Source: Kiritimatiellota bacterium
Lineage (GTDB): Bacteria > Verrucomicrobiota > Kiritimatiellia > RFP12 > UBA1067
Reading direction: 5' to 3'
Assembly (NCBI GenBank): GCA_009778475.1
Contig: WRJS01000034.1
Span: 1 to 32,455 of the forward strand
Length of the DNA: 32,455 bases
A model generated the notes under the pieces. It was not told where the DNA came from. It worked only from the letters and a program-made list of their open reading frames with translations, and ran no database searches. Below, piece after piece: positions 5,858 through 22,547 of the stretch; the stretch's first letter is position 1, and each line of letters opens with the position of its first letter. A program made the position numbers and the translations under genes.

Positions 5858-7279
5858 CTATTCTCGCTTTTCCATCTGCTGCATCATCTGCTTCTCGGCA
5901 TTGCGCTGGAGCTTGACGGCGTCCACCTTGCGGGTGATGTCGCGGCCGACGAGGAAAAGCATCAGGCCGATGAGCAGGATGGCGAATGCATTCACCAGCG
6001 CCGCCACCACGCGCGGGTGAGGCTTGCGGCGGGTGACCACCTCGTACAGCGCGAACATGATGTGCCCGCCGTCCAGCACGGGGATCGGCAGCAGGTTCAG
6101 GATCGCGAGGTTCACGCAGATCATCCGCAGGAAACCGAGCGCGACGACCGCGCCGCTCTGCACCGCCGTCTGCAACACGTCCAAGATCATGAACGGCCCG
6201 CCGATGTTCTTCGCCACCGCCGTGCGCTCGCCCTCGGTCTTGGGCTTGAGCAACCCCCGCAGGATACGCTCCACCATCAGCGCGTCGCCCTTAATCTGCT
6301 CCCACGGGCTCGAGAACATCGTGCCTGAACTGATGAGGCTCGCGACAGGCGCGATGCCCACCAGCACCCTGTCCAGCGTCTTGTCTAATTGCGGCGTCAT
6401 CTCAAAGACGATATCCTCCCCGTCGCGCGTGACGCCGAGCTTCAACGGCTCCTCGCCTTTCTTCATGACCACCATCACGAAGAACTCCCAGCTCCAGATG
6501 ATTTGCCCGTCAACCGTCCGCAGCACGTCCCCCGCCCGTACCCCGGCCTGCTCCGCCGGGAACCCCTCCGTGACCTTCGCCACGACCGGCGACGGCATTT
6601 TCGGGAAAACGCCCTTCATCTCGTAGAACCCGTGCACCTCGTCCTTTTGCAACGGCATCTCGAGCTCGATCGCACCGCCCTCGCGCTCGACCTGCAACGT
6701 CACGGTCCCGGACGTGCCGGCCAGCGCGTTCTCCATGCCCAGCCCCATCCAGTTGTCAATCCGCGTGCCGTTCACCGACAGGATGCGGTCGTCGTCCCGC
6801 AGCCCGGCCGCCCACGCCTCGGACGACTCCCTGACATGCCCCACGCGCGTGTCTAGCACCACCGTGCTGGGCGCCCCCGGCATCCAGAAAATCACATGCG
6901 CCAGCACCACCGCCAGCACGACGTTCCCGAGCGGTCCGGCCACCGAGACGATGATGCGCTTCCACGGCGGCATATCCGGCAGGGCCTCCTTCGGCGCGTC
7001 GGTCTCGCCTTGCAGGCGCTCCATGCCCGAGGGGTCAAGCTGCGGCACGGCCACGTACCCGCCGAACGGTATCCAGCAGACCTTGTACTCGATGCCGTTC
7101 ACCTTGCGCTTCCAGATTGCGGGCCCGAACCCCAAGGAGAACACCTCCACCTTGAACCCCAGCCACCGCGCCGCCAGGAAATGCCCGAACTCGTGGACGA
7201 AAATCGCCAGCCCCAGCAGGAGCAGTCCGCCCGCCCAGAACAACACCTTCATACCGAAACCCGCCAGCATACCCATCAT
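5858..7279 (-). CDS. rseP: RseP-type site-2 membrane metalloprotease
   Basis: An intramembrane zinc protease that cleaves transmembrane anti-sigma factors and remnant signal peptides. From the ATG at 7279 it is 473 aa, close to the usual 450. HEFGH (residues 29-33, in the first membrane helix) binds zinc. Two PDZ domains follow (about 140-205 and 220-300; motifs WAAGLRDDDRILSVNG and AGVRAGDVLRTVDG). The conserved LDG motif is in NLLPIPVLDGGH near residue 400, followed by a terminal membrane helix. The start overlaps the dxr stop as ATGA, with GAGGAGATCAGG just upstream, so translation is probably coupled. The gene order cdsA-dxr-rseP is the classical envelope cluster. The protein substrate here is unknown. 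Confidence 0.93.
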   Translation of the reverse strand: MMGMLAGFGMKVLFWAGGLLLLGLAIFVHEFGHFLAARWLGFKVEVFSLGFGPAIWKRKVNGIEYKVCWIPFGGYVAVPQLDPSGMERLQGETDAPKEALPDMPPWKRIIVSVAGPLGNVVLAVVLAHVIFWMPGAPSTVVLDTRVGHVRESSEAWAAGLRDDDRILSVNGTRIDNWMGLGMENALAGTSGTVTLQVEREGGAIELEMPLQKDEVHGFYEMKGVFPKMPSPVVAKVTEGFPAEQAGVRAGDVLRTVDGQIIWSWEFFVMVVMKKGEEPLKLGVTRDGEDIVFEMTPQLDKTLDRVLVGIAPVASLISSGTMFSSPWEQIKGDALMVERILRGLLKPKTEGERTAVAKNIGGPFMILDVLQTAVQSGAVVALGFLRMICVNLAILNLLPIPVLDGGHIMFALYEVVTRRKPHPRVVAALVNAFAILLIGLMLFLVGRDITRKVDAVKLQRNAEKQMMQQMEKRE

Positions 7280-8511
7280 AACCTGATCTCCTCTCTCGCG
7301 GCGCGACGCGCCCATGCGTCCGCCTCAACAACCGTTCCTAAATCCGCGCAGCCGCACACCGCGTGCGCCGCCATCACATTCTCAATCACGCGCCAGATGC
7401 CCGTGAACGGCAGCCGCCCCGCGAGGAACGCCTCCACCGCCACCTCGTCCGCCGCGTTCGCCACCGCCGGCATCGTCCCGCCCGCCGCGGCCGCCTCGCG
7501 CACAAGCCGCAGGCACGGGAAGCGCCCCTCGTCAGGCTCGCGGAACGTGAGCCCCCCGAGCCGCGCCAAATCGAGGCGCGGCAGCGTCGCGTTCGCGACG
7601 CGCCCCGGCCACGTCATCGCATACTGTATCGCCAAGCGCATATCCGGCACGCCGAGCTGCGACATCACCGTCGCGTCCTGAAACTCGACCAGCGAATGCA
7701 CGACGCTCTCGGGGTGCAGCAGCACGTCGATGTTCTCCACGGGGACGTCGAACAGCCACCGCGCCTCCAGAATCTCCAGCCCCTTGTTCATCATCGTGGC
7801 GGAATCGACGGTCACCTTGCGCCCCATCGACCAGCGCGGGTGCGCCAGCGCGTCCTCGACCGTCACCTTCGCGAAGTCCACTTCCGGCCGCAACGCGAAC
7901 GGCCCGCCCGACGCGGTCAGGATGAGGCGACGGATGGGGGGACAGGCATTCCTGCCTGTTGCCCGGCTGCCCTGTGACAGGCAGGAATGCCTGTCCTCCT
8001 TTTCTACGCACCACGGCAGACACCGCGCATCCTGCAAGCACTGGAACAACGCGCTATGCTCGCTGTCAATCGGCAGCATACTCACGCCCCGCGCCGCACG
8101 CTCGCGCATCACCAGTTCGCCCGCCGAGACCAGCACCTCCTTGGTCGCCAGCGCGACGTCATGCCCCGCGCCGATGGCGGCCAGCACGGGCTTCAACGCC
8201 GCCATCCCCACCATCGCGCAGACCACGAGATCCGCCCCGCCCATGGCCGCGAGGCCGCACACCGCGTCCATGCCCGCGTGGACGGCAATGCCCTTGCCCT
8301 CCGCGAGACGCGCCGCCTCCTGCGCGGCTTCGGGGTCGGTCAGCGCGATGTCCTTGACGCGGTGCGCGACGGCCTGCTCGACGATGCGCGACGCGTTGGT
8401 GTGCGCCACCAGCCCCGCGACCTCAAACCGCCCCGGCAGCGCCTCGACGATTTTCAAGGCGTTCTCACCGATAGACCCTGTGGAGCCGAGTATGACGACG
8501 CGCTTCACCAT
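7276..8511 (-). CDS. dxr: 1-deoxy-D-xylulose 5-phosphate reductoisomerase with repeat-derived insert
   Basis: First committed step of the MEP isoprenoid pathway: DXP to 2-C-methyl-D-erythritol 4-phosphate, using NADPH and a divalent metal. The NADPH motif GSTGSIG is at residues 9-15. Metal/substrate motifs are DSEHSALFQCL, TASGGPF, HPRWSMGRKVTVDSATMMNKGLE and HPESVVHSLVEF. Length is 411 aa, about 15-20 residues more than usual. The excess lies between FQCL and TASGGPF, where a palindromic repeat (7940-7996) is translated in frame as roughly residues 172-191. The ATG at 8511 overlaps the end of cdsA by 7 bases. A GTG at 8520 is an alternative but adds residues outside the family. All catalytic motifs are intact, so the enzyme is probably functional. 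Confidence 0.95.
   Translation of the reverse strand: MVKRVVILGSTGSIGENALKIVEALPGRFEVAGLVAHTNASRIVEQAVAHRVKDIALTDPEAAQEAARLAEGKGIAVHAGMDAVCGLAAMGGADLVVCAMVGMAALKPVLAAIGAGHDVALATKEVLVSAGELVMRERAARGVSMLPIDSEHSALFQCLQDARCLPWCVEKEDRHSCLSQGSRATGRNACPPIRRLILTASGGPFALRPEVDFAKVTVEDALAHPRWSMGRKVTVDSATMMNKGLEILEARWLFDVPVENIDVLLHPESVVHSLVEFQDATVMSQLGVPDMRLAIQYAMTWPGRVANATLPRLDLARLGGLTFREPDEGRFPCLRLVREAAAAGGTMPAVANAADEVAVEAFLAGRLPFTGIWRVIENVMAAHAVCGCADLGTVVEADAWARRAAREEIRL
7940..7996. repeat. palindromic repeat inserted in frame in dxr
   Basis: The arms GGACAGGCATTCCTGCCTGT (7940-7959) and its exact reverse complement (7977-7996) flank a 17-base centre. Each arm also has dyad-like structure (AGGCATTCCTGCCT). 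It is wholly inside the dxr coding frame with no stop. I know similar GACAGGCATTCCTGCCTG words as dispersed repeats in PVC-type genomes (general knowledge, not searched). Confidence 0.9.
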
Positions 8512-9488
8512 AAGAACCACTTTACGAAGAAATACATGAACGGCGCGGCGAACAGGAGGCTGTCCAGAATATCGAGGAACCCGCCCATGCCGGGGAAGCG
8601 CTTGCTCGAATCCTTGACCCCGAACGACCGCTTCAGCAACGACTCCACCAGATCCCCCAGCACGCCCGCCGTCGCCATCAGGACAGCAAGCGCAATGGCT
8701 TTAGACCAATATACTTCATCTAAAATGAACAACGTGACAGGGGGGAAAAGGTCTTCCATACCTCTTAAATTATGATAAAAATTCTCATATTGCGCAAACA
8801 CCTTGTCGTGGAAAACGTACATGATTCCGGCGGCAATAATGGCCACAAGTAAACTCCCTACGTAAGCACCCAAAAGTCCAGGGATAGATTTTGCGGGTGA
8901 AATCTCGGGGATGAGCCTACGCTTGATTTTATGCCCCCAGAGGCTCCCGAACACGTATGCGCCCGTGTCGCCCATCTTTACTAGCAGGATGAAAAAGATG
9001 AGCAGGATTCGCCCCTCACCAATATCTCCTGCATAAACCTCAAACTCAAGTACCAACCGCACCATGAAACTCATCAGAACCGCAACATACCAGATACCGA
9101 GAATAGATAAGCCGAGGCATTCCGCAGCATTTTTCGTCTTACGGCGTAACACGCTCTGTACTATTAAAAACACAGGGATGAGATAAAATAAAATTTCTAC
9201 AGGATTATGAGGTGAATGAGAGCCCCAATTACTGTAGAAATGCGAAGCATAAGAGGCAATAATCCCCGTTTCCCACACCGTCGCGCCCAAGAAGAGGAAG
9301 CCGCACGCGAAGATGCCGATGCGCTCCAGCTTGTACCCCCCCGCCTCGCACATCTCGCAGTATTCCAGCTGCGCGAGGAAATACACGCCGCACATCAGCG
9401 CCACCAGCATCCACACAGGCGCGAACAGGACCGTCCCGACGAAAAACGCCAAGACAAGAGGACCTGTTATGAGACGGTATTTCAGCAT
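8505..9488 (-). CDS. cdsA: phosphatidate cytidylyltransferase
   Basis: Makes CDP-diacylglycerol from phosphatidic acid and CTP in the inner membrane, the branch point of phospholipid synthesis. The product is 327 aa and strongly hydrophobic, with about eight membrane helices. The family signature is at the C-terminus (ESLLKRSFGVKDSSKRFPGM followed by GGFLDILDS). A second conserved region is KMGDTGAYVFG...ISPAKS. AGGAAGC directly precedes the ATG at 9488. It sits 12 bases after the toxin stop and overlaps the dxr start. The middle third (about 8690-9260) is clearly more AT-rich than both ends and than the neighbouring genes. Confidence 0.93.
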   Translation of the reverse strand: MLKYRLITGPLVLAFFVGTVLFAPVWMLVALMCGVYFLAQLEYCEMCEAGGYKLERIGIFACGFLFLGATVWETGIIASYASHFYSNWGSHSPHNPVEILFYLIPVFLIVQSVLRRKTKNAAECLGLSILGIWYVAVLMSFMVRLVLEFEVYAGDIGEGRILLIFFILLVKMGDTGAYVFGSLWGHKIKRRLIPEISPAKSIPGLLGAYVGSLLVAIIAAGIMYVFHDKVFAQYENFYHNLRGMEDLFPPVTLFILDEVYWSKAIALAVLMATAGVLGDLVESLLKRSFGVKDSSKRFPGMGGFLDILDSLLFAAPFMYFFVKWFLW

Positions 9489-9500
9489 GCTTCCTGAATC

Positions 9501-9806
9501 CTATTCACAATATGCAACGCTTTCTTCCTTGACAAAAATCTCGCTGTGCGTCCCTGTCCGCATGAGTGTCAGGACAAGGATATCTCGCTCAATTTGATAA
9601 ATCAACAACCAGTCGGGCATAATATGGCATTCACGTGAACCGATGAATTTCCCCTTCAAGGCATGGTCGCAATGTTTCATGGGCAGGGGTTTACCTTGAC
9701 GCAATAAATCAATGACCTCATGGAGCAACGCCATATTGGCACCACGCTTTTCCATGAGCTTGTAGTCACGCTTGTAACGGCTGGTCCGCTCAATATCATA
9801 TATCAT
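9501..9806 (-). CDS. YafQ/RelE-family mRNA interferase toxin
   Basis: Predicted ribosome-dependent mRNA endonuclease, toxic unless bound by its partner. The 101-aa length and pattern fit YafQ: catalytic-type residues appear in HCDHALKGKFIGSRECHI (His), MPDW (Asp) and RTGTHSEIF (His, Phe). The start overlaps the antitoxin stop by 4 bases (ATGA), the usual arrangement. AT content is well above the flanking envelope genes, suggesting acquisition. It lies inside the uppS-cdsA gap, which is normally tight. Confidence 0.9.
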   Translation of the reverse strand: MIYDIERTSRYKRDYKLMEKRGANMALLHEVIDLLRQGKPLPMKHCDHALKGKFIGSRECHIMPDWLLIYQIERDILVLTLMRTGTHSEIFVKEESVAYCE

Positions 9807-10066
9807 GAATTCAAGTCCTTGATAAGGGCCTCCATGGTTTTAAACCGAGGGGTATTAGGGTCGCGGGCGATGCGTCGGCCTTCCCGGATGGCGGCGAGCG
9901 TCTCATCACTTAACCGTCTAACGGTGAATGGCAGCCCTTGGCAGCGGATAGACTTCTGGACGAATACATTGACCGCCGTCGTGAAGTCCAAACCAAGGTC
10001 AGAGAAAAGCTCCTCCGCCTCTTTCTTCAACTTCGAATCCATGCTAATGGTGATAGTCGATTTCAT
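9803..10066 (-). CDS. RelB/DinJ-family antitoxin
   Basis: The 87-aa antitoxin has an N-terminal ribbon-helix-helix DNA-binding part (MKSTITISMDSKLKKEAEE) and the DinJ-type segment LGLDFTTAVNVFVQKSI. The C-terminus would wrap the toxin. The start at 10066 is chosen because this is where the family begins; an upstream in-frame start adds 11 unrelated residues. It probably represses its own promoter at 10102-10129. It overlaps the toxin start by 4 bases. Confidence 0.9.
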   Translation of the reverse strand: MKSTITISMDSKLKKEAEELFSDLGLDFTTAVNVFVQKSIRCQGLPFTVRRLSDETLAAIREGRRIARDPNTPRFKTMEALIKDLNS

Positions 10067-10101
10067 ACTGCACATCCATTCAATACTGAAAAAACACATA
10101 C

Positions 10102-10199: not shown

Positions 10200-10211
10200 A
10201 AGAAGGTGGTG

Positions 10212-10295
10212 CGGGCCGTATGCGCCCCTTTAGGGGAATTCCTGCCCACATTAAACCACGGGCAGGAATTCCCCTAAAGGGGCGCATACGGCCCG
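10212..10295. repeat. perfect palindrome, 36-bp arms with 12-base loop
   Basis: The arm at 10212-10247 is exactly reverse-complementary to 10260-10295, around a loop ACATTAAACCAC. An inner hairpin (CCCCTTTAGGGG) is nested in each arm. No T-run follows on either side, so a terminator role is possible but not clear. It is flanked on both sides by GGAATTA-type tracts. Confidence 0.9.
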
Positions 10296-10309
10296 TGCCA
10301 GCTTATTTC

Positions 10310-10342: not shown

Positions 10343-11029
10343 ACCTCAGACTCCCCCGAATCGGCGCGAGCGTTTCGCGAACGCCTCCAAGGCTTCCTTA
10401 AACTCGGCCTCCCCGAAATCGGGCCACAGCACGGGCGTGATGTGGAACTCGCTGTAGGCGCACTGCCACAGCAAAAAATTGCTCACGCGCATCTCGCCGC
10501 TCGTGCGCACGATCAGGTCGGGGTCCGGCACGTCGGGCGCGTCGAGGTGCGCGGCGATGGCGGCCTCGCTGACGGCCTCGGGCGCGAGCGTCCCGTCGCG
10601 CACCTCCTCGGCGATTCTTCGCACCGCGCGCGCGATCTCGTTCCGCCCGCTGTAGCTGAGCGCGATGATGACCTGCCGCTCGAAGTGCGCCGTCGCCGCC
10701 TCCACCCGCGCAATCTCCGCCTGTAGCCCCGCCGAGAGGTCGGCGCGGTTGCCGATGGTGCGCAGGCGCACCTGCTTCTCCATCAGCTCCTCCTCGTACT
10801 TGCGGATGAATGCCCCGAGCAACGCCATCAGCCCATCGACTTCCCCCTGCGGGCGCGACCAGTTCTCCGTGCTGAACGCGTACAGCGTGAGGTAGCGTAT
10901 CCCCGCGTCGCGGCAATAGTTCATCACGCGCCGCACGGTCTCCGTGCCGGCCTCATGCCCCGCCAGACGCGGCAGCCCGCGCTGCCGCGCCCACCGCCCG
11001 TTGCCGTCCATGATCATCGCGAGATGATT

Positions 11030-12560
<1,531 letters not shown>

Positions 12561-16605: not shown

Positions 16606-16844
16606 GGCGCCCCGAACAGGTGCGGCCATGATTGCGCTGATTGCAGAAAAACGGGAGGGGATCGCGGAACACTGCCGGCGGCTGAACGTGCGGCGTCATC
16701 CCACCGTGCCGCGAAGGGCAAAACCTTTCCGTATCATAGCGAAGGGCGAAGCCCTCTTGAATAGCCAATATCCAACACAGGGGACCCCGTTGGCGCAACC
16801 GCGAGCAATGGGGCATGAGAACATCCAACGTCCAAGTGAAATGC
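16606..16844. repeat. degenerate leading copy of the 234-bp repeat region
   Basis: After the stop at 16605 there is no gene. From about 16700 the words GCCGCGAAGGGC, TTTCCGTATCATAGCGAAGG and GGGCGAAGCCC match parts of the tandem unit that follows, but the rest (about 16760-16840) is unrelated. It reads as a partial, decayed unit. Confidence 0.6.
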
Positions 16845-17690
16845 GCTTCGGGACAATGACAGGTAGCGCATGGCATCCCCCCCGTGCCGCGAAGGGCGAA
16901 GCCCTTCCGTATCATAGCGCAGGGCAACGCCCTGCGTATGGATATGCACGCCATTTCAAGGCTGAAGGCCTTGCGGATGATGCGGTGCTATCCGCAAGGC
17001 TTTCAGCCTTGTGGCATTGTGTTGGTCGTTACGTAGGGCGTTGCCCTACGCTGTCATCCGCAAGGCCTTCGGCCTTGCGCTTCGGGACAATGACAGATAG
17101 CGCATGGCGCCCCCGCCGTGCCGCGAAGGGCGAAGCCCTTCCGTATCATAGCGCAGGGCAACGCCCTGCGTATGGAGACGCACACCATTCCAAGGCTGAA
17201 GGCCTTGCGGGTGATGCGGTGCTATCCGCAAGGCTTTCAGCCTTGTGGCATTGTGTTGGCCGTTACGTAGGGCGTTGCCCTACGCTGTCATCCGCAAGGC
17301 CTTCGGCCTTGCGCTTCGGGACAATGACAGATAGCGCATGGCGCCCCCGCCATGCCGCGAAGGGCGAAGCCCTTCCGTATCATAGCGCAGGGCAACGCCC
17401 TGCGTATGGATACGCACACCATTCCAAGGCTGAAGGCCTTGCGGATGATGCGGTGCTATCCGCAAGGCTTTCAGCCTTGTGGCATTGTGTTGGCCGTTAC
17501 GTAGGGCGTTGCCCTACGCTGTCATCCGCAAGGCCTTCGGCCTTGTGCTTCGGGACAATGACAGATAGCGCATGGCGACCCCGCCATGCCATGAAGGGCG
17601 AAGCCCTTCCGTATCATAGCGCAGGGCAACGCCCTGCGTATGGAGACGCACACCATTCCAAGGCTGAAGGCCTTGCGCTTCGCGGCATGG
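16845..17690. repeat. tandem 234-bp repeat, about 3.6 copies, made of small palindromes
   Basis: The word TTCGGGACAATGACA starts at 16847, 17081, 17315 and 17549, exactly 234 bp apart. Each unit holds five or six small inverted repeats, including AAGGGCGAAGCCCTT, GCAGGGCAACGCCCTGC, AAGGCTGAAGGCCTT, GTAGGGCGTTGCCCTAC and GCAAGGCCTTCGGCCTTGC. Because 234 is divisible by 3, both strands stay open over long stretches, but the translation is repetitive with no recognisable domain, so I treat it as non-coding. It separates two convergent-free plus-strand genes and could form a highly structured transcript. Confidence 0.9.
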
Positions 17691-17744
17691 CTGGATAGGG
17701 CGGTAACTGATTTTTTAGGAACAAACCTAATGAGGAGAATGATG

Positions 17745-21383: not shown

Positions 21384-21454
21384 GGGAGAGGGGACCAAGG
21401 GGACATAGGGGAGAATACACCTTCGTCCCCTAGGTCTCCTTGATCCCCTCTCCC
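21384..21454. repeat. 29-bp-arm imperfect hairpin between RCC1-type gene and mnmA
   Basis: The arms 21384-21412 and 21426-21454 pair at 26 of 29 positions around a 13-base loop. The words AGGGGACCAAGGGGACATAG / CTAGGTCTCCTTGATCCCCT suggest a dispersed element. It starts just after the stop at 21380, so it could end transcription, though no T-run follows. Confidence 0.75.
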
Positions 21455-21470: not shown

Positions 21471-22547
21471 GTGAAACACCGCAACACAACATCCCGCATC
21501 GCCGTCGGCCTCTCCGGCGGCGTGGACTCTGCTGTGTGCGCCCTGCTCCTGCGCGACCAAGGCCATGAGGTCATCGGCGTGACCCTGCTCCTGCACGACA
21601 CCCCTTCATTGGAGGGCGAGCGTCCCCGCGAGCCGCAGACCCCGTCCGCACAGGCCGCCGCCGTCGCCGAGCAGATCAACATCCCGCACCACGTCATCGA
21701 CCTGCGCGAGCGTTTCGAGTCCGAGGTGCTGCGCCCGTGCTGGGGGGCATTCGAGCGCGGCACGACGCCCAACCCCTGCGTGCTGTGCAACCCCCTCGTG
21801 AAATTCCACGGCCTGCTCAACGCCGCGCACGAGTACGGGTGCGATGCCGTCGCCACGGGGCATTACGCGCGCGTCACCCCCGACGGTCAGCTCCTGCGCG
21901 GCGCGGACACGCAGAAGGACCAGAGTTATTTCCTCCATGCGCTGGACACCGAAACGCTGGCGCGGACGCGCTTCCCCCTCGGCGGCATGACCAAGCCCGA
22001 AGTCCGCGCACGGGCCCGCCAATACGGGCTGGCGAGCGCGGAAAAGCCCGAGAGCCAGGACGTGTGCTTCGGAGACGCGGAGAGCCACATCGCCGAGGCC
22101 CTGCGCCAACGCTACCACGGGCAGGCCCTCCCCGGCGTCATCACCGACGAGGCGGGGAACGTCCTGCGCCGCCACGACGGCATCCACCGCTTCACCCTCG
22201 GCCAGCGGCGCGGGCTGGGCGTGGCCACAGGGCAACGCGCGAAAGTCATTTCCATCAGCACGCAAGACGGCACCATCGTCATCAGTAGCCGCCCTGACGC
22301 ATCCTGCCGGCAGACGTGTTCAGCGGAACACGTCCGCTGGCACGGCGAACCGTCCCCCTGCGGCGCGAGCGTCACCGCCCAAGTCCGCTACCGCCAGAAG
22401 CCCGTCGCCGCGATCATCGAGGCCCTCTCGCCGGCGCACCGCACCGTCAGCGTCCGCTTCACCGAGCCCGTCTTCAGCGTCACCCCCGGCCAGTCCCTCG
22501 TCCTCTACGACGGCGACCGCGTGATTGGCGGCGGCGTGATCCGTTAA
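21471..22547 (+). CDS. mnmA: tRNA 2-thiouridylase
   Basis: Thiolates U34 of tRNA-Lys, -Glu and -Gln using ATP and a sulfur relay. Family motifs: SGGVDSAV (PP-loop), TPNPCVLCNPLVKF with the first catalytic Cys, CDAVATGHYAR, KDQSYFLHAL, SQDVCFGD with the second catalytic Cys, and FTLGQRRGLGVATG. The product is 358 aa, normal. The start is a GTG at 21471 without a clear ribosome site; no better start lies before the PP-loop. Residues about 46-55 (SLEGERPREP) come from a 28-bp repeat also found in the upstream gene, in the variable linker after the first beta strand, so activity is probably kept. The stop overlaps the convergent gene by 4 bases. Confidence 0.94.
   Translation: MKHRNTTSRIAVGLSGGVDSAVCALLLRDQGHEVIGVTLLLHDTPSLEGERPREPQTPSAQAAAVAEQINIPHHVIDLRERFESEVLRPCWGAFERGTTPNPCVLCNPLVKFHGLLNAAHEYGCDAVATGHYARVTPDGQLLRGADTQKDQSYFLHALDTETLARTRFPLGGMTKPEVRARARQYGLASAEKPESQDVCFGDAESHIAEALRQRYHGQALPGVITDEAGNVLRRHDGIHRFTLGQRRGLGVATGQRAKVISISTQDGTIVISSRPDASCRQTCSAEHVRWHGEPSPCGASVTAQVRYRQKPVAAIIEALSPAHRTVSVRFTEPVFSVTPGQSLVLYDGDRVIGGGVIR
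21607..21634 (+). repeat. 28-bp repeat inside mnmA
   Basis: CATTGGAGGGCGAGCGTCCC followed by CGCGAGCC, with a perfect inverted copy at 20971-20998. In frame in mnmA it encodes SLEGERPREP. Confidence 0.85.

Follow-up and report, generated by a model that had tools for sequence, protein, structure and literature searches.

The palindrome that lies in frame within dxr in this stretch of DNA is, in all likelihood, a REPIN, a non-autonomous element composed of two REPs in inverse orientation. The enzyme that moves it is most probably a RAYT of this very genome (a Y1/HUH tyrosine transposase encoded at G000:C147), and related RAYT cassettes likewise reside in frame within host genes. The stretch as a whole, hereafter the window, comprises 32,455 nt and is contig C34 of G000, a MAG-like assembly of 208 contigs that is about 91% complete.

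A preliminary description of the window had placed a palindrome with perfect 20-bp arms at 7940-7996, in frame within dxr. An inverted-repeat search bore this out (arms at 7940-7959 and 7977-7996), the element measuring 63 bp once its tags are counted, and its place in the gene was confirmed as well, the host being a minus-strand ORF (7276-8520) with three Pfam DXR domains in which the insert makes up residues 175-195. The features of the locus are as follows:

7276..8520, minus strand: dxr, 1-deoxy-D-xylulose 5-phosphate reductoisomerase, 414-aa ORF (Pfam DXP_reductoisom, DXP_redisom_C, DXPR_C)
7937..7999, no strand: putative REPIN, whole element with tags (63 bp), an inverted repeat and hairpin whose ends were set against other copies
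7936..7998, minus strand: the insert's 21 codons, DXR residues 175-195, EDRHSCLSQGSRATGRNACPP in translation, without counterpart in 28 of 28 readable relatives
7941..7959, plus strand: REP hairpin 1, stem CAGGCA/TGCCTG (arm search)
7977..7995, minus strand: REP hairpin 2, inverted (arm search)
7960..7976, no strand: inter-REP spacer, unlike the spacers of six other REPINs compared
7937..7940, plus strand: left tag, GGGG in the dxr copy (comparison of copies)
7996..7999, minus strand: right tag, GGAG on this strand (CTCC on plus)

With the tags included, the arms extend to 23 nt, 96% complementary and 17 nt apart, and each arm is a hairpin by itself (CAGGCA-TTCC-TGCCTG). Translation shows EDRHSCLSQGSRATGRNACPP flanked in DXR by CVEK and IRRLILTASGGPF, with the reading frame intact. 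Folded as single-stranded DNA, the element reaches -26.8 kcal/mol (z -7.2), and 0 of 200 shuffles were equally stable. Inverted pairs of 14 or 20 nt, at a spacing of up to 60, were absent from 20 first-order Markov windows, while the same test returned 32 and 18 k-mer pairs in the real window, its other hairpins included. A chance palindrome is ruled out by these simulations together with the dispersed arm copies described below, of which a reversed control had none. The idea that the REP arm is purpose-built to be stop-free in all six frames was also rejected, given that stop-free sequences also make up 22% of the arms after shuffling and 42% of 24-mers drawn at random from the window.

The window carries several other repeats, which we record here in their own right. 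Units spaced by 234 bp and rich in inverted repeats (16892-17640) lie within a 356-aa ORF (16628-17698, KGEALPYHSAGQRPAYG repeats) and constitute another in-frame repeat family. A hairpin with 48-nt arms, 92% complementary around a 12-nt loop (10200-10307), is found upstream of two small minus-strand ORFs (9501-10099), and another, with 29-nt arms that are 90% complementary (21384-21454), sits between two ORFs. Two similar hairpins with ATGCCGGGAGCGCA..-type arms (17-91 and 1146-1228) bracket the first ORF. Finally, AATTAGGAATGAGG-type repeats at 11028-11134 overlap the start of a uppS-like ORF (MKMTNDELQMTG..), and their NEELGIRN-type translations recur in other ORFs of this genome.

DXR was present in 55 of the 59 genomes searched, our own counted; among the dxr matches in the own assembly one is real and two others are REPs. 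Twenty-nine relatives were taken as loci and one (L068) was dropped for a wrong ORF, giving 28 readable relatives, with 25-26 other dxr-bearing genomes left out. The residues had been taken for an insertion from the window alone, and the alignment agrees: the insert peptide was found in 0 of the 28 readable relatives. Between common anchors our DXR has 65 residues, that of a same-genus sister 51 and those of the other 27 relatives 53-59. The sister's DXR, 73% identical to ours, gives an approximate rather than an exact empty site. The figure of about 19 added residues put forward initially thus holds roughly for the element itself (21 codons) but not for the net gain: compared with the sister our DXR is 14 residues longer here, and compared with the 27 other readable relatives 6-12. 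With 21 codons in and 14 net, the native loop may have been shorter to begin with, or else the insertion cost it about 7 residues. As to a surface loop, a sequence alignment puts the insert in a stretch that is gapped in two solved DXRs, just before the GGPF motif, and gaps in both make this stretch look tolerant; a single-sequence structure prediction (mean pLDDT 36.9) was discarded. The own assembly has matches to IspG and, at about 91% completeness, none to HMG-CoA synthase. With dxr being single, this gene content suggests that DXR is probably needed and working in this organism.

The repeat is dispersed. Searching the rest of the genome with the arm (up to 2 mismatches) yielded 40 matches at 27 loci, against 0 for the reversed pattern; REPs occur as opposed pairs at 9 of these loci, including dxr. 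The usual copy starts with GGAG-GACAGGCATTCCTGCCTGTC and closes with its inverse; the foot tag GGAG is present in 21 of 30 copies examined, and the dxr element bears GGGG and GGAG. GGAG is an accepted variant of the REP foot tetranucleotide. Seven REPINs of this genome measure 63 (dxr), 66 (lipA), 65, 62, 66, 68 and 68 bp, too few lengths for a test of frame filtering. When other genomes were searched with up to 1 mismatch, the arm was found in 10 of 59, our own counted, one relative holding 49 copies.

In-frame copies inside long frames with a recognized host account for at least 9 of the 27 loci and fall in 8 genes, as judged by a Pfam run on those REP loci that looked coding; hosts beyond dxr and lipA were assigned by Pfam and reading. 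Besides dxr, these are:

C37: lipA (Radical_SAM by Pfam; lipA by reading and relatives)
C44: glycosyltransferase with in-frame REP
C78: glycogen-debranching/amylase protein with in-frame REP
C101: MurC-MurB with in-frame REP (Mur ligase and FAD_binding_4 domains)
C111: SelA with in-frame REP
C39: SNF2/DUF3670 helicase with in-frame REP
C147: both REP triplets around the RAYT, whose ORF continues stop-free into an M28-type peptidase ("M28" by reading)

In lipA, the insert is a 66-bp REPIN that adds a net 24 residues relative to 12 relatives, and 0 of 13 readable genomes have it (L223, having no readable loop, was left out). The sister's LipA has an unrelated stretch at this site, 9 residues longer than in the others. 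Homologues of the M28-type protein start, where read, at their own signal peptides, so that the RAYT at C147 occupies the N terminus. A LEGERPREP peptide in mnmA (window 21471-22544) also occurs beside the REP in the murC ORF of C101; mnmA is equal in length to its best relative, and hence no insertion can be claimed there.

The transposase that would move these REPs is likely the C147 RAYT. It is flanked by REP triplets (5049/5090/5132 and 5736/5777/5819) sharing the core of the dxr REP, which makes it the likely mobilizer on the strength of its matching flanks. Y1_Tnp (PF01797) has 7 matches in the genome, 6 of them above the cut-off, and no REP with the dxr core was seen near the other six within the 2-3.3 kb inspected. 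Searched against the PDB, the RAYT profile had TnpArep (4er8, E 7e-9) as its top match, and in an alignment of 7 rows H121, H123 and Y181, the HUH and catalytic Tyr of the Y1 family, are invariant. The motifs of the C147 RAYT read NHVH, WQ and YIRDNP, beside the NH[IFV]H, WQ and YIxNNP of subclass 2.4. Hairpin core, inverted REP pair, dispersed copies and REPs flanking a RAYT, all of them features of REPs and REPINs, are found here, with a foot that differs from the canonical GT[AG]G described for these elements (PMC6006769).

These observations bear on three other accounts of the dxr element. Its behavior, a dispersed repeat adding about 20 residues in frame to a needed gene, had been likened to that of the Rickettsia palindromic elements, and to that extent the likeness stands, matching what is described for them (PMC3733652). 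That an element of this RPE/CGTC class spread here, moved by some unknown enzyme, is nonetheless very improbable: the tag is GGAG and not CGTC, the genome holds a RAYT-REP unit matching the dxr REP, and the description of CGTC repeats in PMC3733652 reports no association with a transposase gene. On tag and transposase association we therefore reject membership, and kinship finds no support, RPE families having been compared by description only. We give hardly more credence to a hairpin, REP-derived or not, selected in the dxr mRNA or DNA as an attenuator, processing or topology signal; the fold is indeed very stable, and REPs elsewhere have been proposed as RNA or DNA signals (PMC3733652), but the hairpin is common to 0 of 28 readable relatives and lies in mid-gene. 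Scarcely credible is ordinary variation in DXR loop length, with a palindrome arisen by chance or local hairpin expansion. The stretch does span 51-59 residues among relatives and is gapped in two solved DXRs, yet this account is refuted by the dispersed copies (40 places versus 0 in the reversed control, other genes in frame among them) and by the lack of any such inverted pair in the simulated windows. The dxr element is thus best read as a REPIN.

Within the order, a RAYT turned up at E<=1e-12 in 41 of 161 genomes. Single matches at E<=1e-36 number 41, and 12 of them lie within open frames of at least 700 codons, one of which (G003) contains one TGA. In our own genome (C19), a RAYT separates the SNF2 domain from the Helicase_C of an SNF2-type helicase. 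Other hosts in the order, with the RAYT inside or at the edge, include an EcoEI-type R subunit and a second helicase. Eco57I-type enzymes carry it at the same site in three genomes that belong to different families; the third host (L121) has no Pfam family and was assigned by eye against L106. A glucuronate isomerase is the host in 2 genomes (one scanned) and a FAD oxidoreductase in 2; in a pyruvate-formate-lyase-like host the host domain is on a single side of the RAYT. L107 has a recognized host at one side only. Three of these RAYTs (L104, L106 and L121) have REP-like insertions between HUH and Tyr. Separately, L122 (G096:C91) encodes a permuted RAYT, its Tyr-motif C-terminal part ahead of the HUH part, in one open frame.

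Contigs of named genomes were then scanned, in which at least 584 stretches matched, 564 of them related; the best 80 of the 564 were kept. In 43 of these 80 the RAYT is nested, i.e., has at least 100 open codons on both sides, a share that is not a natural rate given the biased query (5 of its 7 alignment rows being RAYTs in long frames) and the biased sample; 38 have at least 170 on both sides. None of the best 80 loci contains an internal stop, and the stand-alone uncut RAYTs, 32 of the best 80, run a median of 20 codons before a stop. Clustering by blastp combined with reading identified as hosts HsdR (9, at two sites), LeuRS (8), several Eco57I/PglX-like enzymes and CarB (4 among the 43, plus L203, which with 85 codons on one side stands outside them), as well as XseA (2), ADH/GFO oxidoreductases (2), DUF1156 proteins (2), ValRS, MurC, MqnA, adenosine deaminase, and MmeI-like and other methylases. 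Among the carriers is Chloroflexales bacterium ZM16-3, whose RAYT (L153) lies within an Eco57I-type enzyme. Two of the 43, L148 and L183, have no recognized host. Pfam searches of 16 representatives support these hosts: in 9 (L130, L187, L167, L182, L181, L166, L179, L151 and L199) the RAYT has host domains to either side or splits a single domain, and the other 7 have host domains on one side only. L148, from a Chthoniobacter flavus MAG, holds two RAYT copies one after the other within a single open frame, separated by repeated peptide stretches.

A word of 12-30 nt is common to both flanks in 38 of the 43 nested RAYTs, mostly palindromic by eye (without a shuffle control). All 43 retain HUH and the Tyr motif, as do 37/37 and 35/37 of the others, respectively, although the scan pattern contained HVH, so that HUH conservation across the 80 loci is partly by construction, and the Tyr test used a loose pattern. 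An ATG within the 35 upstream codons is present in 6 of 43 nested RAYTs versus 21 of 32 stand-alone uncut ones (Fisher 6e-6); 17 more of the nested have GTG or TTG, and 20 have none of the three. Most nested RAYTs thus appear to be without an ATG start of their own.

All eight LeuRS RAYTs are inserted at the same place, which falls between positions 364 and 377 of the T. thermophilus enzyme, just past the editing domain. The HVGH and KMSKS stretches are invariant in all eight RAYT-bearing enzymes, and in 8 of 8 genomes (completeness not given) the RAYT-bearing LeuRS is the sole match above the LeuRS cut-off, at 959-993 bits. A LeuRS-RAYT structure prediction had a mean pLDDT of 52.3, with a usable editing domain (137 residues, Z 18.6, 1.4 A to 1h3n), which in the model ends at residue 435, equivalent to chain position 364, the start of the insert. 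For the whole of this low-scoring model, no Y1 transposase was among the 50 structural matches listed. Searching four genomes for the REP word next to the LeuRS RAYT gave 116, 3, 35 and 18 copies, with 0 in controls. The two extremes, G166 (L164) with 116 copies and G167 (L170) with 3, have a near-identical LeuRS-RAYT (RAYT 93% identical).

Among same-host pairs, RAYT dN/dS was 0.045-0.29 in 8 of 16, host parts being similar; the other 8 were saturated, and in three of the eight measurable pairs dS was 1.5-2.9, which makes those ratios rough. On the RAYT tree, loci with the same host tend to group together (23 changes of host label, versus a shuffled mean of 42 and a minimum of 11; 0 of 200 shuffles as low; bootstrap unsettled). 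Comparison of the RAYT tree with the LeuRS tree shows agreement for L164, L170 and L195 and conflict among the other five of eight: L147 groups with L162 in the host tree and with L144 in the RAYT tree, each with support. Such conflict suggests that the cassette is sometimes replaced, or enters the same site again, and in these sequence trees it counts against pure anchoring of the RAYT in LeuRS.

From these data a mechanism can be outlined. The RAYT would cut REP hairpins in single-stranded DNA at the tagged foot and would join a REPIN copy into a new target, and copies landing in frame in tolerant loops of needed proteins would survive. REP-RAYT-REP units would likewise settle in frame inside host genes, where, for lack of a stop codon, the transposase would be translated either as one domain of the host product or from a start inside the gene. 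It thus seems that RAYT cassettes exist as inserts that code for protein. We lean, by a modest balance of probability, towards a broader reading, in which in PVC and other bacteria REP-RAYT-REP cassettes sit in frame in loops of needed enzymes (LeuRS, CarB, MurC, XseA, restriction enzymes), mostly without a start or stop of their own, and are made as host domains, REPINs such as that of dxr being their small non-autonomous form. Any nonsense or frameshift mutation in the cassette would also disable the host enzyme, and this would guard the cassette against loss. The nested RAYTs might instead have been domesticated as fusion domains in the service of the host enzyme, for instance as nucleases of restriction systems, and be no longer mobile. 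Several observations fit such domestication, which we consider a doubtful though sizeable possibility: RAYTs recur at the same site in HsdR, LeuRS and Eco57I-type enzymes of different groups, they are under purifying selection where measurable, and G167 has kept its RAYT with the REP word nearly gone (of 3 remaining copies, 2 adjoin the RAYT). However, the hosts are functionally unrelated (LeuRS, CarB, XseA, MurC, MqnA), repeat words bracket 38 of the 43, one of these words is dispersed (116 copies in G166), and the RAYT and LeuRS trees partly disagree.

In-frame coding palindromes, known in Rickettsia without a reported transposase, occur here together with a candidate enzyme of the genome that carries them, which makes the mechanism testable. 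In-frame RAYTs suggest, moreover, how a transposase stays a single, vertically inherited gene, and the protein-resident lifestyle, if true, would help explain the persistence of single-copy RAYTs over millions of years. The genes of some aminoacyl-tRNA synthetases, of CarB and of restriction enzymes include the coding sequence of a ssDNA-transposase domain. This has consequences for annotation and prompts the question of whether transposition is coupled to the expression of housekeeping enzymes.

The closest known systems are the REPINs, the GTAG-type REPs with their RAYT (TnpA-REP) and the REPtrons, whose published descriptions share with our case two inverted palindromes, a conserved tetranucleotide foot, dispersed copies, and a RAYT with HUH and a single Tyr flanked by the same REPs (PMC3116915, PMC8266576, PMC6006769). 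Unlike GTAG-type REPs, the tag here is GGAG, and genes harbor at least 9 of the 27 loci in frame; and whereas REPtrons are described as not seeming to transpose as a unit (PMC6006769), related RAYT cassettes lie here in frame in hosts. With TnpA-REP subclass 2.4 (Bertels group 4), as portrayed in PMC6006769, the present RAYTs have NHVH, W and YIxxNP-like motifs in common; genes of that subclass hold in-frame REPs, and here the RAYTs themselves additionally lie within host genes. REP dimers within ORFs that encode 20-30 residues are on record for the verrucomicrobium Opitutus terrae and others (PMC3733652). Intragenic REPs are therefore already published, and the dxr element alone belongs to that known kind, albeit in other genes (dxr, lipA, murC, selA and others) and likened by description, not by repeat sequence. 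The Rickettsia elements RPE-1, RPE-4 and RPE-6 are likewise in-frame palindromic inserts in protein-coding genes, RPE-4 and RPE-6 being classed with CGTC-tagged repeats for which the same account reports no transposase association (PMC3733652). RAYTs in frame in host genes are absent from the intragenic-REP account of that paper. Nor did we find a description of them in the open-licence literature searched, and transposase RAYTs in frame inside host genes look new. Inteins are in-frame coding inserts in conserved, often essential proteins, at recurrent sites. Nested RAYTs resemble them in being in frame, in conserved hosts and at recurrent sites; unlike inteins, the insert is a ssDNA transposase between REPs.
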